Both the position numbers and the translations under genes were made by a program. A stretch of 25,400 nucleotides of DNA from IMG/VR virus record IMGVR_UViG_3300013101_000080, positions 1 through 25,400 of that record; one strand, written 5' to 3'. Numbering within the stretch: the first letter of the stretch is position 1; each line of letters opens with the position of its first letter. This DNA comes from a virus. The notes beneath the pieces are model-generated. The model saw nothing but the letters and a program-made list of their open reading frames with translations, searched no databases and had not been told where the DNA came from. Of this stretch, positions 2,276-21,014 are shown one piece after another.

Positions 2276-3343
2276 CTAGCTTCTATCTATAATACCCATA
2301 CCTAACATACGACTATCAAGACACGCAAATCCAAGTTCTGCCCAGCCAAAGAAGCCTTGCTTCTGTACTCTGAGTAAAGCTGGATCATCATGCGCTTCAT
2401 ATTCTTTACGAACGGGCATAACAAGAGAGTCATTAACACTCAAGTCGAAACCAAGTATCTGCGTTTCACCAAGAGTACTTACAGTACTATCAGCTGCAGT
2501 AATATTAGGATTATCAAGAGTATAGCCATTATAAGTATTACCACTATCAGCGATAAACTTACCATAAGCAGAACCATAACCATTAATATTATACATACCA
2601 GTAGCACCTAAGTGCTGAATCTCATGGAGAGATACATTCCAAAGTGCGCCCATTCCGCCCGCTTGAAAAACCTCTCGTCTAGTTATAGGATCAATATCAG
2701 TGTCAGTCCACTCTCTAATATCTGCTGCATCTTCTGGAGATACATACAGATCAGTAAGAGTACGACCTGTTCTCTTAAACCCTACAATCATTTTATTAAT
2801 TAATTCTTTAGAAAGATAACCAGCACCCTGAGATGCTGAGTCTAACTCATATATTGGTGCAGGTCTAGAACCCAAAAGTCCTTTACCTGAAAAAGCAGAA
2901 GTTGCGGCTGGCATAATTACTCTCCATCCACACTCCTCCTCGTAATTTGCTAGATCTTTTGCGGCGCGATTAGCTGCTCTTGTAGCAATATCGATCCTTG
3001 AATCTCTTGCATAAGTAATTTTCCAGTCGGCTGAAGCATCAATCGTAAAAGTAGGAATATATACCTCTTCTCCGATACCTTCTATGAAGTTCTGTGCTAC
3101 GTAACCTAAACCTGGAAGTACCCATACAGGAATCTCAAAATCTTCTGCTACAGGATATACCGCCTGTGCACCCGGACCTAGTCTTTCCACAGTAAAAAGC
3201 TGTCTCATTATTGATTCCAGCTCGATTTGTTGTAATATTGGGGTTGTTATTGCTGCAGCGAATGCACGATAGGCTGCCATTCCTTCAGGAGTATTAACTT
3301 CTGAAGTAGCTTTAAACAAATCCATCATTTCCTGTCTGTCCAT
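2276..3343 (-). CDS. Major capsid protein, HK97-fold
   Basis: A 355-residue protein that forms the icosahedral shell. An N-terminal helical arm (1-55) is followed by a loop region (about 60-110) with EIPVWVLPG and EEVYIPTFTI, then a long helix rich in Ala/Arg (about 112-135) corresponding to the P-domain spine helix. A C-terminal region contains SLVMPVRKEYEAH and the terminal WAELGFACLDSR, typical of HK97-type capsid proteins. Its place at the end of terminase-portal-protease-scaffold-decoration is the classical order. Codon use and a strong GGAGG ribosome-binding site fit high expression. No propeptide cleavage site could be assigned. Sequence identity to a named phage is not recognised. Confidence 0.85.
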   Translation of the reverse strand: MDRQEMMDLFKATSEVNTPEGMAAYRAFAAAITTPILQQIELESIMRQLFTVERLGPGAQAVYPVAEDFEIPVWVLPGLGYVAQNFIEGIGEEVYIPTFTIDASADWKITYARDSRIDIATRAANRAAKDLANYEEECGWRVIMPAATSAFSGKGLLGSRPAPIYELDSASQGAGYLSKELINKMIVGFKRTGRTLTDLYVSPEDAADIREWTDTDIDPITRREVFQAGGMGALWNVSLHEIQHLGATGMYNINGYGSAYGKFIADSGNTYNGYTLDNPNITAADSTVSTLGETQILGFDLSVNDSLVMPVRKEYEAHDDPALLRVQKQGFFGWAELGFACLDSRMLGMGIIDRS

Positions 3344-4946: not shown

Positions 4947-6068
4947 TTAATCTTTTTTTGCTTTTAATAAAGCTGTCTGCAAACGACTCAAAGATTCTAA
5001 TATAATAGCATCTTGGTGTTTACTTTTAAAAAGATCTTGTATGTATAAAGAAGCAGTCTGTAGAGCCTCATTTCTAAGGCATGCCTGGTCAGTTGCATCG
5101 CCTCCTGGTGAGGTACATGATGTATCAAATGCTGTACACCAATTCTCTCCTATTATTTCTCCTGCTTTATCCTTTAAACACTTTTTATAATTTACACAAA
5201 TACCTATTGTGTCATTATACACTAATTCAGATTCTTCCTTTTCATAAGTCTCTTCTACTTCTTTAGAGGTTACATTAATATTTATATCCTCTGACTCATC
5301 TTTTTTATTGGATATTTCTTTTTTACTTAGTATATCCAAATCAAATAATAAATCTTTATCGTCACTTTCTGATGCGGCTGTTTCAAGTATAATAGAGTCT
5401 GGATTAGCTGGTTTTTTTACTATACCGCATCCTGAAAAACATATTCCTCTCAAAACCTTTGCTACTGTTCCTTGTGCTATCTCTTCTCCACCTTTCATAA
5501 CTACTGCATTTTTTCCATAAATATCAGCTTCCACGTCTATACCTACAGCACTAGCTGCTTCTTTAGGTATAATAGTGTTTCCGACTTTAACATCAAAATC
5601 AGTAAAATAACACTCCATAGATACTTTGTACTCTTTATTTGCAATCTCTTTAGCTATTTCAGGAAATCTATTTTTATATACAATAGACCCTATCTGTATA
5701 TGCATATCTTGTGTATCTAATGTAGCAGTTTCAGTAGAAAGAAGCTCATCCAAATCTAATTTGGCCCCTTTAGCGTCTGTAAATGCACTAGAATATAAAT
5801 GACCTATAATTTCCTGCTCATCATGCTCGATGTCAAGAGCTTTACTTACAACAGTATCTGCTGCAGCTACTAATTCTGATCCTAAAAAGTAAGCATGGTT
5901 TAGATTTTCACCACTAGAAACTAACACAGCAGAAAAATAAGATAAATCTGGCTGCTTGTTCATATCGTTTGGTAAATTAATAACTGAAGCTACCTCTTTT
6001 TTTATTTCGTCCGTCTCTAATTCTGGTGTAATAGTCGCAGTTAAATAAAATTTATATTTCTCATCCAT
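4947..6068 (-). CDS. Prohead maturation protease (S78/T4 gp21-like) with C-terminal extension
   Basis: A 373-residue protein. The first ~230 residues look like a herpesvirus/T4-type serine protease that cleaves scaffold and capsid during maturation. Visible features are NLNHAYF (55-61) near the active site, IEHDEQEIIGH (80-90) with candidate catalytic His82, KVSMECYF (148-155) with candidate nucleophile Ser150, and GCGIVKKPANPDS (213-225), the usual end of the fold. Residues about 230-285 are highly charged, and about 286-373 form a separate region with five cysteines then helices. The extension may be a tethered scaffold/core piece. Its ATG overlaps the portal stop by one base (TAATG), so translation is probably coupled. 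Catalytic residues are assigned by motif only. Confidence 0.75.
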   Translation of the reverse strand: MDEKYKFYLTATITPELETDEIKKEVASVINLPNDMNKQPDLSYFSAVLVSSGENLNHAYFLGSELVAAADTVVSKALDIEHDEQEIIGHLYSSAFTDAKGAKLDLDELLSTETATLDTQDMHIQIGSIVYKNRFPEIAKEIANKEYKVSMECYFTDFDVKVGNTIIPKEAASAVGIDVEADIYGKNAVVMKGGEEIAQGTVAKVLRGICFSGCGIVKKPANPDSIILETAASESDDKDLLFDLDILSKKEISNKKDESEDININVTSKEVEETYEKEESELVYNDTIGICVNYKKCLKDKAGEIIGENWCTAFDTSCTSPGGDATDQACLRNEALQTASLYIQDLFKSKHQDAIILESLSRLQTALLKAKKD

Positions 6069-8029
6069 TATTTTGATCCTCCGAATCGTATTCTATGTAC
6101 TTCTTCTAAAAATTTATTATAATCTTCATCTGGTAATGTTTCTTGTGCTCCACTAATAAAATCTTCCCAACTATCTATAGGTATACTTTTTATAATATCT
6201 ATTTGTTCACTTAGGAATGCAGCCTTTTTACTTTGTTCAATATTGGCTGTTTTAGTAGTAGGCTTACCTTTAGGTCTACCGTTACTTGGTGTTCCTGAAG
6301 GAGAATTCTGAACAGGTTGAGTAGAAGATTGCTGAAATGGACTACCTGTAAGTCCAAATATACCGTCTTCAACCAACGGTAACTCTACTTCCATATTTTT
6401 AAGTTCATTGGTATAATCAAACCCAAGAGCTTCAAGAGCTGTTTGATATGAAAGCATTCTTCTATCAACAAGGCTACTTAGCGTGGACATATATAGTATA
6501 TCATCTTTCAGAACTGACTCGTCCCATCTTATCTTTGGGAACCTATCAAAGCCCATTGCTTCTGCAATCTGTCTATATTCTTTATAAATCCATTTTGATA
6601 CCTGCCTACGAGCATAGTTAATCTCTTCCATTATACCCTTAGTTAGTAATCCAACCTCAGCAGTGTTAATATCACCTGTACCATCTATTATAGCCCTTGT
6701 AACAGCTAATCCGCCAGTCATGTCTTCATTAACTTGTTTATATTTGTCTTGCCCTAGAATAGCTTCTATTTCTGGAGCCACTATCTTCTCTATTTCTAAA
6801 GTATGATTCCAAACTACATCGAATGATTTACTAGGAGTATCAAATAATTGTGCTATTGTTTCTAGCTCGGTTTGAGTTACTGCAGGATACTCATCATTAC
6901 CTATAGTTATTTTTAAAATATAATTTGAAATACCATCCAATGTACTTAAATCTGCGTTCTTTAAGTGTTGTTTATAATTAATAGTATCAAACACACGAGT
7001 AGCTCTAGGTCTTGCATATCTTTCATATGGTTGTTTTCTATAAGTTACTGTGCCTACTAATCTAGAATCTAACTGAAAATCTCCTCCACCTTCTGCCGCT
7101 TTCTTTAACTCATTTGGTAGAGCTTTAATAAGAGCTTTTTCATCTTCTGTTAGTTCTGATTTATCCTTCTTTAGTACAGCACTTAATTCTGGAGGAGGGG
7201 TTAATTTTATAGACGTGTTATCGAATAGTAAATTACCTTCTACATTAACTAGTTCTGGGTTTAAAACAGTGTAAGACACTGGCAAATGTCCTTTTGACCA
7301 TATATTCTTTTTTGCAGCCTGTTCAAATTTAACTAATTCTTTTTGAGAAACCCCACTAGCTTTAGCTTGTGCTATAATAGCCAGAACAGCTGCATCCTTA
7401 TCCTCATCGAATTTAGCATGTAACTTATGCAACCTTTGTTCTTCTTTTCCTTTTGATGTGTTTGTTTTTGATTTTTGTCCAGGTACTGGTGATAAATGTG
7501 ATACTCTTGGTTCGTATTTTGCTAGCACTTTATAAGTTGTTACATGACCAACCTTAAAGAAATCTAAAAATATCCACTCTAAAAGATCATCAAAATTAAC
7601 ATCAAATGTCCACGTATCGAAAAAATTTTTTATGTTTTCATCATCTATATCGTTCTCAAATCCCTTCATTGCTAGAGATGCTAATACATTAGTAACTGAA
7701 CCTAATAAAGGATCAGTGTAATATAATTCTGAAGCCTTACTAAATAAAGTATGAGGATCTTCTTCATAAGGGTTTTTTGCCCCTGACAAATCTAAATTTT
7801 GTCTAGAAACAAAATCTCTATTTATAGTGGCTGCTGATTCTCTAAAAATATGTGGTTTTATTGCCTGTCCAGGTTTATCTAAAAATGCCAAATTTTGTTT
7901 ATTTGGTGTAACAAACAACGTAGATTCTCCAGACTCTTTATCTATCTTAATAGATTGTATACCAGAATTTGGATATTTTTGCTGTAAATCAGCTGTAAGT
8001 TTATTTGTATTTATAACATCATCTTTCAT
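6068..8029 (-). CDS. Portal protein
   Basis: A 653-residue protein likely to form the dodecameric portal ring at the packaging vertex. An N-terminal region (about 90-165) contains helices around YYTDPLLGSVTNVLASLA and a hydrophobic WIFLDFFKVGHVTTYKV stretch, as in portal wing domains. The middle (about 385-500) includes a conserved-looking GGLAVTRAIIDGTGDI, then a long helix (INYARRQVSKWIYKEYRQIA). Residues about 555-600 are a Pro/Ser/Gln/Gly/Lys linker, followed by a helical tail. Length fits large myovirus portals. It follows the large terminase (with one 65-aa gene between) and is translationally coupled to the protease. Identification rests on gene order plus general architecture. Confidence 0.75.
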   Translation of the reverse strand: MKDDVINTNKLTADLQQKYPNSGIQSIKIDKESGESTLFVTPNKQNLAFLDKPGQAIKPHIFRESAATINRDFVSRQNLDLSGAKNPYEEDPHTLFSKASELYYTDPLLGSVTNVLASLAMKGFENDIDDENIKNFFDTWTFDVNFDDLLEWIFLDFFKVGHVTTYKVLAKYEPRVSHLSPVPGQKSKTNTSKGKEEQRLHKLHAKFDEDKDAAVLAIIAQAKASGVSQKELVKFEQAAKKNIWSKGHLPVSYTVLNPELVNVEGNLLFDNTSIKLTPPPELSAVLKKDKSELTEDEKALIKALPNELKKAAEGGGDFQLDSRLVGTVTYRKQPYERYARPRATRVFDTINYKQHLKNADLSTLDGISNYILKITIGNDEYPAVTQTELETIAQLFDTPSKSFDVVWNHTLEIEKIVAPEIEAILGQDKYKQVNEDMTGGLAVTRAIIDGTGDINTAEVGLLTKGIMEEINYARRQVSKWIYKEYRQIAEAMGFDRFPKIRWDESVLKDDILYMSTLSSLVDRRMLSYQTALEALGFDYTNELKNMEVELPLVEDGIFGLTGSPFQQSSTQPVQNSPSGTPSNGRPKGKPTTKTANIEQSKKAAFLSEQIDIIKSIPIDSWEDFISGAQETLPDEDYNKFLEEVHRIRFGGSK

Positions 8030-8374: not shown

Positions 8375-10123
8375 TTACTTCTTTTTCTTTTGCAGCACTG
8401 CTGCTGATAATCCAAATTTTGTGAGTGCGCTTGATCCACTACCCAACCCACTTGCTGGTCCTAAATGATTAAATCCAGGAGATCCTGCTCTTTGTCTTAT
8501 TAAACCAGACCCATTTAAAAGTATTGGTGCTTCCTCATCATCTAATTCTTTTTCTAACTGTCTTGCACCATGTGCTGCTAATATAAGGGCGGAATATAAA
8601 TCCTTATTCATATTCTTAGTAGGAGTGTCAAAATGTAAGACACCTGTTGCTGTTTGAGTCACTACAATATTTAACAACTGAGACTTTAATATGTCTATTG
8701 TTATGTGTTTTTTAGCTATAAAATCACTAGAACTAGTTGCTAATTCTGGAAATTTAAGCATCTTATCTTCGAACATTGCTTTTGTTGTAAAGTTTGCATC
8801 TGCTATCCATTTAGGACTAAAATTAACCATATCAAGTATATGTCTTCCTTCTCTTTTAGAATTATCTGGATTCCCTCTATCTAAAATAGGTTCCTCATTA
8901 TTATACCCCTCTTCTAGTAAATCCATCACAGCCTTTCCTCCACCACCTCTATCCATGAATATTCTAATAACTCTATATTGGTTACAAAGTAGTTGAACTG
9001 CTTTAGTCAAACCTTGAGTAGTTTGAGCTTTCAACTCTATAGCGTTAACAATTTTATTAGGTTTTCCATGTTCAATAACTACTACACCACAACTAGCTGA
9101 ACCGCCTTGATTTGGATCAATACCTATTATATAATTTTTAGAGCTATTACCCTTTAATTGTAAATTGAAATCAGAACCTAATGTACACTCATCCAATAAA
9201 GATGCTTTAAAAAATCCTTCTGAGTCTGAAACCATTGCTGCTTCATACTCCATAGAATATTCAGTAGTAGACATTGTACGTCTGGCTTTATTGATATTAT
9301 TCATATCTAAGAAGCCAATAGGAAGATCCCAATAAGGAACCTGCCAAACTGAATATTGAGATACTTCATCCGCTCTTTCTGCTTTTTCCATTTGGAGCCA
9401 ATGATCTTTCATTCTTCTCCACATATGATTAAACTTAAAATAACCAGAAGAAGTCATTATCATCTTATTTACTTTTTCTTCTTCGAAATCTTCTTTGGTT
9501 GCAAAACCACTATCAATTAATTTCTTTTGTTTTTCCAAACGACGAACTCTTTCCATAGGTGCTAAGTTTGTGGCTCCCATAGGAAGAAGAACCATATCTA
9601 AAGTTTGATCTGGTACTTGTGCTAACTCATCTACTAATATTAAATAAAACCTAGATCCACGAATCTTACTACCGTCTGTACCTAAAGGAAGAGCCTCAAT
9701 AAATGATGGGGTTTTTCCTCCCACAGACTTAAATTTTAGATAACAAGTATCAGATCCTCTAGTTGGTTTTTTCTGAACAGATTCTCGTAATATAGATGAT
9801 TGATCATATAATTTCTCAACTTCAGAAAATATCATTTTGCTTTGTCTAAAAACAGGACCAATTAATCCTACACGATATCCTGGATACAATAAGCATCCTA
9901 AAGTAGCTAAAATTCCAAGTAAAAAAGTTTTACCGAAACCACGACCAGCAACAGTTATCACGTAATTTTTAAACCACATGTCCCTAAAAACCAAACGCTG
10001 GATTGGAGCTAAATCCACACCCAGCAGTTCATAAGCAGCGGTACAAGGGTGCAACCTGTAAAACTCTACAAGCTCTTTCCCTCGTATCATCAACTCCTCT
10101 AAGTTTTTTCGTTTTTTAGCCAC
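8375..10123 (-). CDS. terL: Terminase large subunit (ATPase-nuclease)
   Basis: A 582-residue DNA-packaging motor. The ATPase domain shows Walker A GRGFGKT (60-66) preceded by YVITVA, and Walker B YLILVDE (160-166) with Asp165-Glu166. An SSG coupling-type motif is at about 225-227. The C-terminal RNase-H-like nuclease shows IIGIDPNQGG (Asp336), IFMDRGGGG (Asp391) and NKDLYSALI (Asp508), the expected three acidic sites. The start codon is GTG (10121-10123), overlapping the upstream TAG stop by one base (TAGTG), which implies coupled translation with the preceding gene. The C-terminal 50 residues are Gly/Ser-rich and end in four lysines. All key motifs are intact; the assignment is secure. Confidence 0.97.
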   Translation of the reverse strand: MAKKRKNLEELMIRGKELVEFYRLHPCTAAYELLGVDLAPIQRLVFRDMWFKNYVITVAGRGFGKTFLLGILATLGCLLYPGYRVGLIGPVFRQSKMIFSEVEKLYDQSSILRESVQKKPTRGSDTCYLKFKSVGGKTPSFIEALPLGTDGSKIRGSRFYLILVDELAQVPDQTLDMVLLPMGATNLAPMERVRRLEKQKKLIDSGFATKEDFEEEKVNKMIMTSSGYFKFNHMWRRMKDHWLQMEKAERADEVSQYSVWQVPYWDLPIGFLDMNNINKARRTMSTTEYSMEYEAAMVSDSEGFFKASLLDECTLGSDFNLQLKGNSSKNYIIGIDPNQGGSASCGVVVIEHGKPNKIVNAIELKAQTTQGLTKAVQLLCNQYRVIRIFMDRGGGGKAVMDLLEEGYNNEEPILDRGNPDNSKREGRHILDMVNFSPKWIADANFTTKAMFEDKMLKFPELATSSSDFIAKKHITIDILKSQLLNIVVTQTATGVLHFDTPTKNMNKDLYSALILAAHGARQLEKELDDEEAPILLNGSGLIRQRAGSPGFNHLGPASGLGSGSSALTKFGLSAAVLQKKKK

Positions 10124-15009: not shown

Positions 15010-15228
15010 TTATTCGACTTTTACATCAATAGCTTGAACGCCCTTATCAGTCTGCGCTAACTTGAAAGATACTTTTTGACCCTCTTTAAGAGTCTTAAAG
15101 CCTTCCATGTTTATCGCACTGAAATGAACAAAATATTCATCAGTGGCTTCTTCGCCCTCATGAATAAATCCAAAACCTCTAGAATCATCGAACCATTTTA
15201 CAAGTCCATTTTCTCTCGTTCCTTCCAT
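15010..15228 (-). CDS. csp: Cold-shock-domain protein
   Basis: A 72-residue single cold-shock domain, the usual length for bacterial CspA/CspB. Visible are the [16 protein letters not shown] block with RNP1 (GFGFI, 18-22) and RNP2 (YFVHFSAI, about 31-38), and the [21 protein letters not shown]-terminal strands. Such proteins bind single-stranded RNA/DNA and act as RNA chaperones; a phage copy may favour phage mRNA translation or counter host responses. RBS AAAGGAGG lies about ten bases before ATG. It lies 17 bases after the endolysin gene and is close in sequence to cellular Csp, which suggests capture from a host. Confidence 0.95.
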
Positions 15229-15245
15229 ACTAGATACTACCTCCT

Positions 15246-15638
15246 TTAATTAATTAATTCAAAATGGGGCAAATCATGAAAATTTTGGTCTTTGACCTTT
15301 GTATCTCCATCCCAATCTGCTCCACACCTTATTTTTATATTCATACTATTAGCCATGCCTCTTACAAACCCAACAAACATATACATTCTATCTGTATTTT
15401 CCCATTCTATTGGATATGGTAAAACATCCACTGCACAAGATGGTTTGCTGTTATGCTTTCCATTTTGCCATTCCACTTTAGACCTACCAGAATGAAATGC
15501 TTCGTTTTGATCATGTTCATTCCTATGCCCACAAATAACACTACAATCAAAATCTTTAATAACTTCATTAAACAGATCCTGTAGTGGTTGGGCACACTGT
15601 GATAAATTCTTTTTTGATCTCTTTCCAAAACTTGGCAT
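15246..15638 (-). CDS. Peptidoglycan peptidase, M15 family endolysin
   Basis: A 130-residue zinc peptidase like the T5 endolysin (L-alanyl-D-glutamate/D-Ala-D-Ala type), cutting peptide cross-bridges of the cell wall at lysis. The core motifs are [15 protein letters not shown] (zinc ligand His62), [11 protein letters not shown] (zinc ligand Asp71) and HDLPHFEL (Asp122 as catalytic acid, zinc ligand His125). It has no signal peptide and no separate cell-wall-binding domain. An unusual cysteine occurs at 68 in SKPSCAVDV. No holin gene was recognised adjacent. The family call is strong; bond specificity is inferred from T5-like motif order. Confidence 0.9.
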
Positions 15639-15678: not shown

Positions 15679-16767
15679 CTATAAATACGCTGCTAATAGC
15701 GCACCATGCGCAACTGAAGTCATAGGATTTCCAGCTAATCTAATATCACTTATATTCAATGGAAAATCTATATCATCCATAACGTCCTGAACCTTACGGA
15801 CAAAACCATCAGCAAGAGCCAATCCACCAGAAATAATTAAAGGTACATCTTCTTTAAATATAGGTAAATCTTTTTTACGTTTTGTAAGCTCATATGCAAT
15901 GTTTTCTAATGTATACTTTATTACTGCGTTATAGTAAACACTTATAGCGTTCTGAATATCACCTTTTGGGTTATATAAATCTATACCTGCTTCTTTTTCT
16001 TGCTGTATCAAACTAGGCGACATATCTAACGCCACTCCTACAGAATTATCTATGTAATCACCTGACCTTGTCAGGCTAAACTCAATAAGTGGATCTCCTT
16101 GGTGTATTACTACACAATTAGTCATTCCAGCACCATATGATAAACAAACACCAGTAAGACCTTCGTCTAACAACTCAGACAATGCTATTGCAAATGACTC
16201 GTTTATAGGTGAAGGATCGTAGCCTAATTCTCTAAGATACATACCCATAATTTCAGAGTGGTACACTATATCAAACTTATTATCTATAGGTACTGCTGGA
16301 ACAGAATAAACTACTTTAGATCCTGGTGTAGCTTCACCTAGTAAATCTTTTATAATAAGTTTTAACATTGGTAAAGATGTTTTATTCTTTGGTGATATGA
16401 CACCTCGTTGTAATGGTCTGTCTGCTTTATCATGCCTTTCTATTGCTATAGCTAGAGCATCTTCCCCAACTACTATAAAATCACCTGAATCATCTATTAC
16501 ATAACTAGCTTCTCGTTTATCTAAAGACATCTTAATACTGTTACGATTTACTTCTGACTTTGGTGTTATTTTATAGAAAGCATCTCTTTGCATCTTAAAA
16601 GAAGCGTTTCCTGATATATCCATTGTAGCGGACACAAGCATATTAGTACCTATATCTAAACCTTTGTGGGATGGACCAACGTCCTCTACTACCTCATGTT
16701 TATTTTGTACTTTAGGTATTTTTTCTTGCGGACCTTTTGTTTTATTAAAATCTTTTTCTTCATTCAT
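15679..16767 (-). CDS. Actin-like ATPase (ParM/MreB superfamily)
   Basis: A 362-residue member of the actin/Hsp70 superfamily. In order: phosphate-1 GLDIGTN (36-42), a connect-1-like PLQRGVIS (118-125), INESFAIALS (188-197), phosphate-2 LSYGAGMTN (209-217), adenosine motif IISGGLALADG (311-321) and connect-2 GNPMTSVAHGALLAA (346-360). All five are intact, so ATP binding and filament formation are plausible. It lacks a long Hsp70 substrate domain: total length is typical of bacterial actins. The N-terminal ~33 residues are a charged, probably disordered tail. It is 14 bases downstream of a coiled-coil gene and in one operon with clpP. Likely role: segregating or positioning phage DNA or proteins in the cell; this is inference. 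Confidence 0.85.
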   Translation of the reverse strand: MNEEKDFNKTKGPQEKIPKVQNKHEVVEDVGPSHKGLDIGTNMLVSATMDISGNASFKMQRDAFYKITPKSEVNRNSIKMSLDKREASYVIDDSGDFIVVGEDALAIAIERHDKADRPLQRGVISPKNKTSLPMLKLIIKDLLGEATPGSKVVYSVPAVPIDNKFDIVYHSEIMGMYLRELGYDPSPINESFAIALSELLDEGLTGVCLSYGAGMTNCVVIHQGDPLIEFSLTRSGDYIDNSVGVALDMSPSLIQQEKEAGIDLYNPKGDIQNAISVYYNAVIKYTLENIAYELTKRKKDLPIFKEDVPLIISGGLALADGFVRKVQDVMDDIDFPLNISDIRLAGNPMTSVAHGALLAAYL

Positions 16768-16781
16768 AATACTTAATACTC

Positions 16782-17381
16782 CTATTTTTGTTTGGGTAGT
16801 TTACCCATTAATTTCTTTAACTTATCTACATTAGCTTTTACTTCCGGTCTACTATCTATTACTTTTTTATTTGTAACATAGGATTTAAATTTATCCTCTT
16901 CACCTTTATGTGTAGGGTCTATAAAAATATTATCAATAGAAGGTCTAGCTTCCTCAGATACGTCTTGAACTTCGACTTGAGCATTAGTAATAGGTCTATT
17001 ACTTAATTTAGTAGTGAGGTCTATTATAACGTCATCTCTCTTATCTAATTTAATATTAAGTTTATCAATAACCTCTTTCAATTCTAGTTCTTTTTCTTTT
17101 AATTCTTTTATTTCTAAAACATATTTTTTTTCTAAATCAATAGAAACTTCTTCAATAGCGCTATTTACCATCTCATCTACTTTATCTTTAGTATAACCTT
17201 CTTTAGTTAATGGTATATTAGAAGTTAATTTTTTAATATCTTCTCTCAAAGAGTTTATTTCAGTAATACTGGTTGGAGATGGAAGTCTCTGTGCTTGTTT
17301 ACGCTTAAACTGAGCCGACCTAGGACCATTAGCTATTATTTTTTTTCTTCTTTGATTGTATGTTTTATTGTATTCTACCAT
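16782..17381 (-). CDS. Coiled-coil protein paired with the phage actin
   Basis: A 199-residue protein. The N-terminus (1-32) is strongly basic with many Arg/Lys/Gln (NQRRKKIIANGPRSAQFKRKQ), suited to nucleic-acid or surface binding. Residues about 43-125 form a long coiled coil (Leu/Ile/Lys/Glu heptads). A polar linker (125-160) leads to a short C-terminal helix, VDKLKKLMGKLPKQK. It begins three bases after the clpP stop and ends 14 bases before the actin gene. By analogy with adaptor proteins that link actin-like filaments to cargo (ParR, AlpA), it could be the actin adaptor, but no ribbon-helix-helix or HTH is evident. Confidence 0.65.
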   Translation of the reverse strand: MVEYNKTYNQRRKKIIANGPRSAQFKRKQAQRLPSPTSITEINSLREDIKKLTSNIPLTKEGYTKDKVDEMVNSAIEEVSIDLEKKYVLEIKELKEKELELKEVIDKLNIKLDKRDDVIIDLTTKLSNRPITNAQVEVQDVSEEARPSIDNIFIDPTHKGEEDKFKSYVTNKKVIDSRPEVKANVDKLKKLMGKLPKQK

Positions 17382-17384
17382 ATT

Positions 17385-17969
17385 TTATTTTCTCTTACTT
17401 TGAACTTCGTCTACTAAACCGTAATTCACAGCTTCATCAGCAGTCATGTAAAAATCCTTCTTCATGTCTTGTTTTATTCTTTTCAACGTCTTACCTGTAA
17501 ACTTAACATAATATTTAGCCATTTTTTCATATAAATGTTTTACTTGATTGAATGAAATTTCCATATCATGAAACTTGCCTTCCGAACCGCTGGACAGTTC
17601 ATGTATCATTACTTCAGAATTTTGTAATATATATCTTTTTCCTTTTGCACCTGCTGCTAAAATAAAAGAACCAGCCGATACAGCTCTTCCATAAGCAAGA
17701 GTACATACGTCTGGTTTTATATAATTCATAGTGTCATAAATACTAAACATAGAAGCGATCTCTCCACCAGGGCTATTGATATACATATAAATATCTTTCT
17801 CATTATCTTGTGATTCAAGAAACAATAGTTGGGCTGTTATAGAATCTGCGAGGCTTTGGTCAAACACCCCTTTAATAAAAATAACTCTATCTTTAAGAAG
17901 CCTACTATACAAATCATATGAATGCTCCGAACCGTTTTTTCCTTTTTCTATTACGTATGGTACTGTCAT
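17385..17969 (-). CDS. clpP: ClpP-type serine protease
   Basis: A 194-residue ClpP, the same length as cellular enzymes. It shows the N-terminal axial segment VPYVIE, then SYDLYSRLLKDRVIFI (18-32), YINSPGGE (63-70), catalytic Ser98 in GRAVSAGSF, AAGAKGKRY (105-113), His123 in VMIHEL and Asp172 in MKKDFYMT, and ends with EAVNYGLVDEV. The triad is intact, and the similarity to bacterial ClpP1 in the first 35 residues includes the region that meets Clp ATPases. Head proteases of some phages are ClpP-like, but here an S78 protease fills that role, so this one probably degrades host or regulatory proteins or joins the host ClpP barrel. It is the first gene after a strong promoter. Confidence 0.95.
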   Translation of the reverse strand: MTVPYVIEKGKNGSEHSYDLYSRLLKDRVIFIKGVFDQSLADSITAQLLFLESQDNEKDIYMYINSPGGEIASMFSIYDTMNYIKPDVCTLAYGRAVSAGSFILAAGAKGKRYILQNSEVMIHELSSGSEGKFHDMEISFNQVKHLYEKMAKYYVKFTGKTLKRIKQDMKKDFYMTADEAVNYGLVDEVQSKRK

Positions 17970-18019
17970 AATTCTTATTTCCTTTTCCTTTAATTAATTT
18001 AAACTATCTGTCAACGTAT

Positions 18020-18049
18020 ATAATATAAGACTCTTTAACGATTTGTCAA
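18020..18049 (-). promoter_or_regulatory. sigma70/sigmaA promoter for clpP-coiled-coil-actin operon
   Basis: On the minus strand: -35 TTGACA (18044-18049), then either TATTAT at 18020-18025 (18-base spacer) or TATATT at 18022-18027 (16-base spacer). Transcription would start near 18010, about 40 bases before the clpP ATG, with an AAAGGAAAAGGA RBS. The -35 context ACTTGACAAAT is identical to that of the promoter at 22545-22572. A second TTGACA lies at 18009-18014, without a good -10. Confidence 0.7.
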
Positions 18050-18360: not shown

Positions 18361-18390
18361 TTTATCTTAGTTATATCTTATCTATGTTAT

Positions 18391-18430
18391 GTATCAGTTT
18401 TTGATACACTAGTGTATCAGTTTTTGATAC
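18391..18430. repeat. Tandem pair of 17-bp palindromes beside the winged-helix gene
   Basis: Two identical copies of GTATCAGTTTTTGATAC (18391-18407 and 18414-18430), each a perfect 6-bp inverted repeat with a 5-base centre, 23 bp apart. The bases between them make another perfect 16-bp palindrome, GATACACTAGTGTATC (18403-18418). The array starts six bases after the stop of the winged-helix gene on the coding strand and is followed by about 120 bases of AT-rich DNA without genes. No T-tract follows, so this looks more like an operator or origin iteron pair than a terminator. Confidence 0.7.
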
Positions 18431-18435
18431 GCTGG

Positions 18436-18948
18436 TTAATAAATTGAAATATCATTTTTTTCGTAAATACCATCAAAACATACTCTTTTTTCTGTAAGTT
18501 TTTCTGTCTCAGTTGGGGATAATGTTTCATAACGATAAAAGTATTCTCTGTAATTTTTGTCTTTGCCTTTCCAATATCCTAATATATAAACTTTTTGACC
18601 ACCTTTTACTTTTGAGTTAGCTGTCTTTATCCATCCACTTTTTTCTAATTGTTTTACTTTATCTTGTACTTTGTTTATACTGAACCCAGTTCCTTCTGCT
18701 AATTTCCTAATAGAAACACTACAGACAAGCAAATTTTTAACATAAAACCTTTTCTTAAGTGGGTACCCCTTAGTGTCCTTCCAATTCTTCTTAATCAGAA
18801 ATTTTACCATAATTCTGTATACAGCTATTGCTCCACTAGAATAAATTAAATTATCTTGTAATTCTTGTTCTGTAATTTTCGGGTCATTAATTTCTTTTAT
18901 AAACTTGACATGTTCTTTGTAGAAGCCTTCATTACTTTTATTATTCAA
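18436..18948 (-). CDS. Winged-helix DNA-binding protein
   Basis: A 170-residue protein. Residues about 77-110 form a clear winged helix: VSIRKLAEGTGFSINKVQDK with recognition helix, then VKQLEKSGWIKT and a basic wing with VKGGQKVYILGYW. The N-terminal part is helical with acidic residues, and a basic patch (KKNWKDTKGYPLKKRFYVK) precedes the winged helix. The architecture resembles phage/plasmid replication initiators or transcription regulators of the GntR/MarR-like kind; it has no ATPase or ligand domain. A pair of palindromes lies six bases past its stop codon, the natural candidate for its binding site. Function (replication or repression) not resolved. Confidence 0.65.
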   Translation of the reverse strand: MNNKSNEGFYKEHVKFIKEINDPKITEQELQDNLIYSSGAIAVYRIMVKFLIKKNWKDTKGYPLKKRFYVKNLLVCSVSIRKLAEGTGFSINKVQDKVKQLEKSGWIKTANSKVKGGQKVYILGYWKGKDKNYREYFYRYETLSPTETEKLTEKRVCFDGIYEKNDISIY

Positions 18949-19685: not shown

Positions 19686-21014
19686 TTAACCTATAGTTTT
19701 ATCTTGTAACATATCTGCAACTTCTAATATATTACTTCTATATGAATTTTTTAAATCCACATACGCTATAGAATTGTGCGGTAATACTCTTAGTAGTTTT
19801 AATAGCCCAGATTCAGATGGCTTAACAACATCATATGTTTGTCCTAAATCACCAAGCATTATTAGTCTACCTGTCTCTGATGGTCTACTTGTTATCATAC
19901 TCATATAGTCTACAGTTATTAGCTGAACTTCGTCTACTATCAGGGTGTCATTATCAAGTAATGACAATCCTTGTATTGAGTTCAACGGTATTGGTTCAAG
20001 CTTCTGACGAAAGATAGTTTCTTTTATATAGTCATAATCAGAACCTTCATGGCTTTGTCCTCTAGTATTAGAATATAAAAAATAAAGAGCACTCATAAAA
20101 CCTGCTAACCAGTCTTGCATCTTTTCATTCTTATCTCCGGGCATAAACCCAAGATCGTACTTAGAATTTAATCCTATTGGAGGTCTAGAAATAAAAATCT
20201 TCTTATCTTCATCAGATAAAGAAGTAGCACAACTTAAAAGAGATTTTCCACTACCCCACTTACCAGTAATTAGCACATGCTGTGACTCTTTTAAAGCGTA
20301 AATCGCACAAGTTTGAAATATATCTCTAGCTTTAATATCCCTACCTTTTTTATTTCTTATACATCTGTACTCTGGAGCATCATCAATTCTTTCAAAAACA
20401 TGTTTATTAGGATGATGAGCATACACAGTTGGATTGCTAGTAGGTGTGTTAATTATAACAAAAAACCAAGTGTCTTTAGACATGGTTCTTTTACCTGCTT
20501 CACAAAATAACTTAAACATATCAATATATTCGCCATTATCAAAGTACCTTCCATAACTAAATATGTCTTCTGTGTTGGTTTTAAATAAATCACTTTGTTC
20601 AATATATACATAAGGATTAAAAATATTATTTAAAACTACATCATATAGCTTAGTATCTAGACCTTGAGCTTCTGCAATTATACCCATAGACATATCTTTA
20701 GTAGTTAATGTTGCTTGATGGTCTATTGCACATCTTATAATTTTGGCATCATTAGAATCATCCTTTTCCACATCAATACCTGATATATCAAATATTATCT
20801 TATCGCTATGGTTTTCTTTAAAGTCCTTTAATGCTCTTATTGCTTGTCTAGCACTAAAAGAAGTAGACGGTTTAAATTTGTGTTTATCTAATTCTTTTAA
20901 TACTGTTATTGGTATTACTATTTTTTCACATGTTTTAGTTAATTTAAATAATATCTTTGCATCGTCTAATAATAAATTTGTATCTACAACTACTTTCTTT
21001 TTCAGTTCGGCCAT
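19686..21014 (-). CDS. phoH: PIN-PhoH fusion ATPase/nuclease (PhoH-like)
   Basis: A 442-residue protein with an N-terminal PIN nuclease domain and a C-terminal PhoH P-loop ATPase. PIN acidic residues are visible: Asp11 (VVDTNLLLD), Glu41 (TVLKELDKH), Asp89 (DDSNDAKII) and Asp107 (TTKDMSMG), the four expected. The ATPase has Walker A GKWGSGKS (251-258), SRPPIG (276-281), Walker B TLIVDEVQ (357-364) and IMLGDLGQT (385-393), an arginine-rich end (NSYRS). Such PhoH2-type proteins act as RNA helicase plus ribonuclease. Many marine and other phages carry PhoH. Its role in phage may be RNA turnover or phosphate/stress response; not shown here. Start ATG 21012-21014 follows AAGGAGCTC. Confidence 0.95.
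   Translation of the reverse strand: MAELKKKVVVDTNLLLDDAKILFKLTKTCEKIVIPITVLKELDKHKFKPSTSFSARQAIRALKDFKENHSDKIIFDISGIDVEKDDSNDAKIIRCAIDHQATLTTKDMSMGIIAEAQGLDTKLYDVVLNNIFNPYVYIEQSDLFKTNTEDIFSYGRYFDNGEYIDMFKLFCEAGKRTMSKDTWFFVIINTPTSNPTVYAHHPNKHVFERIDDAPEYRCIRNKKGRDIKARDIFQTCAIYALKESQHVLITGKWGSGKSLLSCATSLSDEDKKIFISRPPIGLNSKYDLGFMPGDKNEKMQDWLAGFMSALYFLYSNTRGQSHEGSDYDYIKETIFRQKLEPIPLNSIQGLSLLDNDTLIVDEVQLITVDYMSMITSRPSETGRLIMLGDLGQTYDVVKPSESGLLKLLRVLPHNSIAYVDLKNSYRSNILEVADMLQDKTIG

Follow-up and report, generated by a model that had tools for sequence, protein, structure and literature searches.

Phage-encoded actins have so far been known from single cases. PhuZ of the nucleus-forming jumbo phages, a phage-encoded cytoskeleton with a late positioning role, is a tubulin, whereas the protein described here is an actin, and the likeness between them lies in being a phage cytoskeleton and, by analogy, in late positioning. 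The magnetosome actin MamK and MreB have the closest solved folds and are the best PDB profile matches to our protein, but they share about 18% identity with it in structure alignment, have other partners and, in the case of MamK, carry an aspartate in phosphate-2 where a serine is found here. AlpC and AlpA of the Corynebacterium prophage CGP3 are likewise a phage-borne actin with a small partner, but this system is ParM-like, uses a DNA-binding adapter and alpS sites, and belongs to a prophage (PMC5539076). The volactin of Haloferax volcanii (HVO_2015), which forms dynamic filaments in cells (PMC10869688), and the salactin of Halobacterium belong to the same Pfam family as the phage protein and have the same invariant phosphate-2 serine; as beside the phage volactin, the gene next to haloarchaeal volactin (DUF7139) encodes a protein with a related tail. 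The haloarchaeal proteins differ in their cellular setting, with a role in shape or DNA distribution, in their membrane-protein partner and in having no ClpP nearby. Literature searches, mainly of open-access articles, returned nine papers that name volactin or salactin, none of them about phages as judged from title or abstract; they returned none on DUF7139 and, with the phrases tried, none on phage-encoded ClpP.

We analysed a viral contig of 25.4 kb (the window), which is AT-rich (32% GC) and whose features are given in Table 1. The ORF coordinates confirmed the layout reported in an initial annotation of this DNA: three genes on the minus strand, in which clpP is followed after 3 bases by the gene of a coiled-coil protein (the companion) and, after a further 14 bases, by an actin-like gene. 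We give a probability of roughly 60% to the reading that the products of this operon are a volactin-type phage actin cytoskeleton, a modular adaptor of its own and a protease. The best reading of the companion is that it would be the dedicated adaptor of volactin, with a filament-binding tail and an exchangeable cargo-binding head, probably used at a late stage of infection. Downstream of volactin lie an endolysin-like gene (15246-15638; PHROG 465, 5.5e-30), present or absent across the clade, and a gene that looks cold-shock-like by eye (15010-15228) and is mostly kept in it. Elsewhere in the window, 19686-21014 encodes a protein in which a PhoH-like ATPase is joined to a PIN domain.

Table 1. 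Coordinates of the features of the window, with residue numbers for the volactin motifs.
Feature	Position	Strand	Description
Capsid gene	2276-3343		
Portal-like gene	6068-8029		
Terminase gene	8375-10123		
Volactin-family actin (PF25216)	15679-16767	minus	362 aa
Volactin motifs			phosphate-1, residues 36-41; connect-1, 188-192; phosphate-2, 209-217; adenosine, 313-322; connect-2, 348-355
Volactin adaptor, putative (companion)	16782-17381	minus	199 aa; basic N-terminus, long coiled coil, conserved C-terminal tail
Companion residues 146-199	16785-16946	minus	conserved tail at the C-terminus (FIDP ... VDKLKKLMG); presumed to bind volactin
Companion residues 1-40	17262-17381	minus	net charge +9; presumed cargo-binding part
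ClpP peptidase	17385-17969	minus	194 aa; bacterial length; triad S98/H123/D172 intact
Sigma-70-type promoter, probable	18020-18049	minus	TTGACA 18049-18044 with TATATT (spacing 16) or TATTAT (spacing 18)

The actin-like protein matched the Pfam family Volactin with an E-value of 6.2e-61 and 207.1 bits against a cut-off of 35, over positions 2-321 of the 321-position profile; no PHROG family was found for it. Relatives were searched with a five-member alignment, which found at least 496 viral and at least 287 genome stretches, and the best 80 of each set were retrieved. They span phage contigs, haloarchaea, Archaeoglobi, Omnitrophota and Magnetococcales, and volactin also occurs in two uncultured phages, 485 and 595 kb in size. 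The window volactin is about 34% identical to the haloarchaeal members. Phage and cellular volactins interleave in a quick, unrooted maximum-likelihood tree, which gives no direction of transfer, and the ClpP-bearing phages form one strongly supported clade (33 rows). A contig classified by GTDB as Fermentibacteria (L086, QNDS01000009.1; 32,411 bases) carries the full ClpP-companion-volactin operon at the same coordinates as the viral contig L022, which is equal to it in length, and may be a phage contig binned with Fermentibacteria or may truly belong to that host. The haloarchaeal genomes of L131 and L138 have a second volactin-family match within longer ORFs (649 and 1344 aa), at a site other than that of the copy linked to DUF7139.

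Comparison of the companions showed that they align over their full length among close relatives and that farther out only the C-terminal 50 or so residues remain, typically as FIDP or FIP, a spacer and a helix of the KLxxL type. A profile of 29 companion tails from the ClpP clade, searched against 15,759 ORFs, gave matches with E < 1 exclusively to genes of volactin operons. On 103 loci outside its construction, 12 of the 30 top matches of this clade-tail profile were to the gene just upstream of volactin, a position that accounts for 2.4% of the ORFs in these loci (p ~1e-12 for the enrichment), and many of the remaining top matches lay downstream of volactin in the same neighbourhood, for example in Omnitrophota. 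The neighbours of volactin that the profile recognises come from phages unrelated to the clade as well as from archaea and bacteria. When the tails of ten companion groups were compared by hhalign, 25 of the 45 pairs scored higher than any of the 220 control pairs. The most distant groups are weakly similar pair by pair, and the unity of the tail rests on a chain of links because several distant pairs score like the controls. By census, volactin has a companion beside it or close by in 66 of the 69 distinct viral loci and in 70 of the 75 cellular ones; this count is descriptive, since part of the reference set was picked by position, and the statistics on the tail are those of the 103-locus test and of the hhalign comparison. 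What persists is thus the pair, volactin with a neighbour that has a variable front and a related tail. A tblastn search for relatives of the window companion in named phages found none.

In the relative L007 the companion and volactin genes are in frame, 9 bases apart, and we read through the companion stop and predicted the structure of the two proteins as one chain. In this model the tail (residues 157-193) had a pLDDT of about 74-88 between linkers (133-156 and 200-241) that were under 50, and residues 61-130 formed one long confident helix. A short isolated segment predicted at that confidence between disordered linkers suggests that the tail docks on volactin. The possible coiled-coil adaptor proposed in the initial annotation is the more general part of the system and is better supported than the link to ClpP; its tail is common to partners that lack any coiled coil.

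The fronts of the companions were of several kinds. The basic N-terminus followed by a long coiled coil, noted from the start, was recovered in the window, where the charged stretch covers the first 40 residues, and the coiled coil is seen in L007 as the long helix. In the ClpP clade the basic start is accompanied by a YNK...GPR motif (GPRD-like) and the coiled coil is of variable length. The companions of L050-L061 and of Magnetococcales have an N-terminal membrane segment, those of L067, L102 and L117 a zinc-ribbon-like CxxC front, and in haloarchaea and Archaeoglobi the neighbour of volactin is the membrane protein DUF7139, with membrane segments, whose gene precedes the main volactin gene in all seven archaeal genomes checked. 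In Haloferax it is the tips of the volactin filaments that meet the membrane (PMC10869688), a contact that a membrane-anchored partner would explain.

ClpP gave a Pfam CLP_protease match of 1.7e-68 and is bacterial in sequence as in length, which agrees with its earlier description as intact. Its catalytic triad is invariant in 34 of 34 ClpPs of the clade and the enzyme should therefore probably be active; the residues taken as equivalent to the pocket residues Y62 and L114 are invariant as well. No AAA_2 match exceeded the cut-off in 13 records of the clade, so that ClpP would depend on, and most likely works with, a Clp ATPase of the host. Its PHROG matches are to head maturation proteases, and we considered a role as prohead protease, which was rejected: some 9 kb separate clpP from the portal gene, and it is not grouped with the portal and capsid genes. 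The slot between those genes is filled by 4947-6068 and its neighbours; no Pfam match was found for 4947-6068, and a protease role for it would follow from position only.

The strongest competing explanation is that ClpP, adaptor and actin form one machine, in which ClpP, served by a Clp ATPase of the host, would remove the adaptor or volactin and thereby reset the filaments. The gap between clpP and the companion gene has a median of 2 bp in the clade and falls within -60 to +30 in 30 of 32 cases, and the order of the three genes, whose recurrence in other phages had been put forward as a check, is the same at some 30 distinct phage loci, and the active site is invariant; however, all these loci belong to one clade. 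Their three genes are the edge of a clade-wide syntenic block in which clpP is followed by genes of a cold-shock protein, a nucleotide kinase and HD-like proteins up to terminase, and the adjacency of ClpP shows little about a functional link because these neighbours are equally conserved in order. The clpP gene is not adjacent to the companion gene in L040 and L045, and unrelated genes lie between the two in L009 (4547-5371, HNH-type endonuclease-like by eye) and L016 (3914-5260, tail-fibre-like). A gene of the former kind, also recognised by eye, separates companion and volactin in L023 (5352-5993). Volactin genes with no ClpP nearby occur outside the clade, in phages as large as 595 kb. A ClpP match was absent from 23 of 30 volactin records searched whole, including records of 329.8 and 485 kb; four of the other seven had it alongside volactin, and in three the matches were distant and located far from it. 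Phages with the actin and without clpP had been named beforehand as evidence against the coupling, and ClpP is not borne out as a general part of the system, nor did we find evidence that regulated proteolysis by ClpP controls the filaments. We regard the single machine as unlikely, and ClpP as a co-expressed, probably active protease specific to one clade, with a putative link to the filament system.

Somewhat less likely still is DNA positioning as in AlpAC or ParMRC, in which the basic N-terminus of the companion would bind a centromere-like site of the phage and volactin filaments would move or segregate the DNA. The charge of the first 40 residues together with the coiled coil, and the prophage precedent of AlpC with its DNA-binding AlpA (PMC4446434, PMC5539076), are compatible with this, as are two tandem palindromic repeats of 23 bp (18390-18435) about 400 bp upstream of clpP. 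However, searches of Pfam and PHROG found no known DNA-binding domain in the companion, many like partners are membrane-anchored or have unrelated fronts, and the palindromes immediately follow a winged-helix (RepL/O-like) gene (18436-18948), an arrangement also seen in its relatives. In L002, L007, L009, L018, L024, L025 and L029, two or three palindromes with a spacing of about 22-25 bp occupy the same place, mostly with a different sequence in each, and by their position and divergence they may be a co-diverging operator or an origin iteron array. No integrase was found in the 13 clade records, which may be fragments, and there is thus no obvious need for prophage segregation.

The TTGACA promoter reported ahead of clpP is present, its end about 50 bases from the clpP start. 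Promoter-like matches in the region are fewer than in shuffled sequence (75 against 94.6), so that the promoter alone is weak evidence. It is probably real, since TTGACA sites with 11-12 of 12 matches occur 75-96 bases upstream of the clpP frame in four close relatives, L007, L009, L034 and L022 (p <= 0.01 for each against shuffled upstream regions).

The structure of the window volactin, modelled from 72 sequences (pLDDT 91.4, pTM 0.87), is an actin fold whose best matches were the MamK filament 5ljv (Z 28.7; 2.9 A over 291 residues), the BeeR filament (Z 27.1) and MreB (Z 26), and a profile search of PDB sequences returned MamK first (4e-10), followed by MreB. The model thus supports a filament-type actin rather than EutA or Hsp70, the fold that would have spoken against the initial annotation. 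A fold search of BFVD returned mainly Hsp70-like proteins and no known phage volactin. Of the five nucleotide-site motifs reported earlier, four are canonical; phosphate-2 reads SYGAGMTN, with S210 at the position where actins have an aspartate. This serine is invariant in 72 of 72 aligned family members and is therefore a family trait rather than decay. That volactin is a non-polymerising ATPase of the actin fold, for example chaperone-like or of the EutJ type, serving virion assembly, is improbable: the serine and the presence of EutJ and DnaK among the Foldseek matches could be read in this way, but the best Z matches are to proteins that form filaments and haloarchaeal volactin, with the same serine, forms them in cells (PMC10869688). 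Intein-like insertions interrupt volactin exactly inside the phosphate-2 loop (IS-C...HN-CGAGM) in L060 (3067-5169), L072 (5980-8079) and, in shortened form, L062 (383-1870).

Under the preferred reading, an actin cytoskeleton with its own modular adaptor, volactin would bind nucleotide and polymerise, as its family and fold predict. The FIDP/FIP-type segment and short KLxxL helix of the companion tail would bind volactin, as conservation and model confidence suggest, and the front would decide what the filament is attached to. In the window clade the basic N-terminus and an oligomerising coiled coil may hold a cytoplasmic cargo, and the membrane anchors of other phages and of archaea may hold the membrane. 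In several phage lineages volactin is found among genes for necks, tail sheaths and tail fibres. With modest confidence, we therefore take its job to be a late one, in which virion assembly is positioned or organised, rather than the segregation of DNA. Among unrelated large phages, a neck protein gene adjoins the companion gene in L065, a tail sheath gene is near volactin in L070 and virion protein genes are beside the pair in L055; in two members of the window clade, L016 and L040, tail-fibre genes are just upstream. This context is not universal and differs in L050, L058, L067 and L079.

We put at about even odds the wider proposal that the volactins of phages, archaea and bacteria all use one class of adaptor, in which a conserved C-terminal tail binds the filament and the heads can be exchanged, be they membrane anchors, coiled coils, zinc-ribbon domains or virion-linked ones, that DUF7139 is the membrane anchor of haloarchaeal volactin and that phages have re-aimed this module at their own assembly sites. 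What is new is not an actin with ClpP; it is the pairing, in viruses and in cells, of volactin with a modular adaptor that bears the tail. Volactins, described in haloarchaea as a filament family, are found widely among tailed phages of small and very large size, and their neighbour almost always has a related tail; the recurrence of this pair in dozens of other phages, in archaea and in bacteria offers a route to what the filaments hold. If the tail binds volactin, a single peptide would identify filament adaptors across viruses, archaea and bacteria and would predict how the volactin of Haloferax is anchored, and a single domain swap could let a virus redirect a cytoskeleton of host type.
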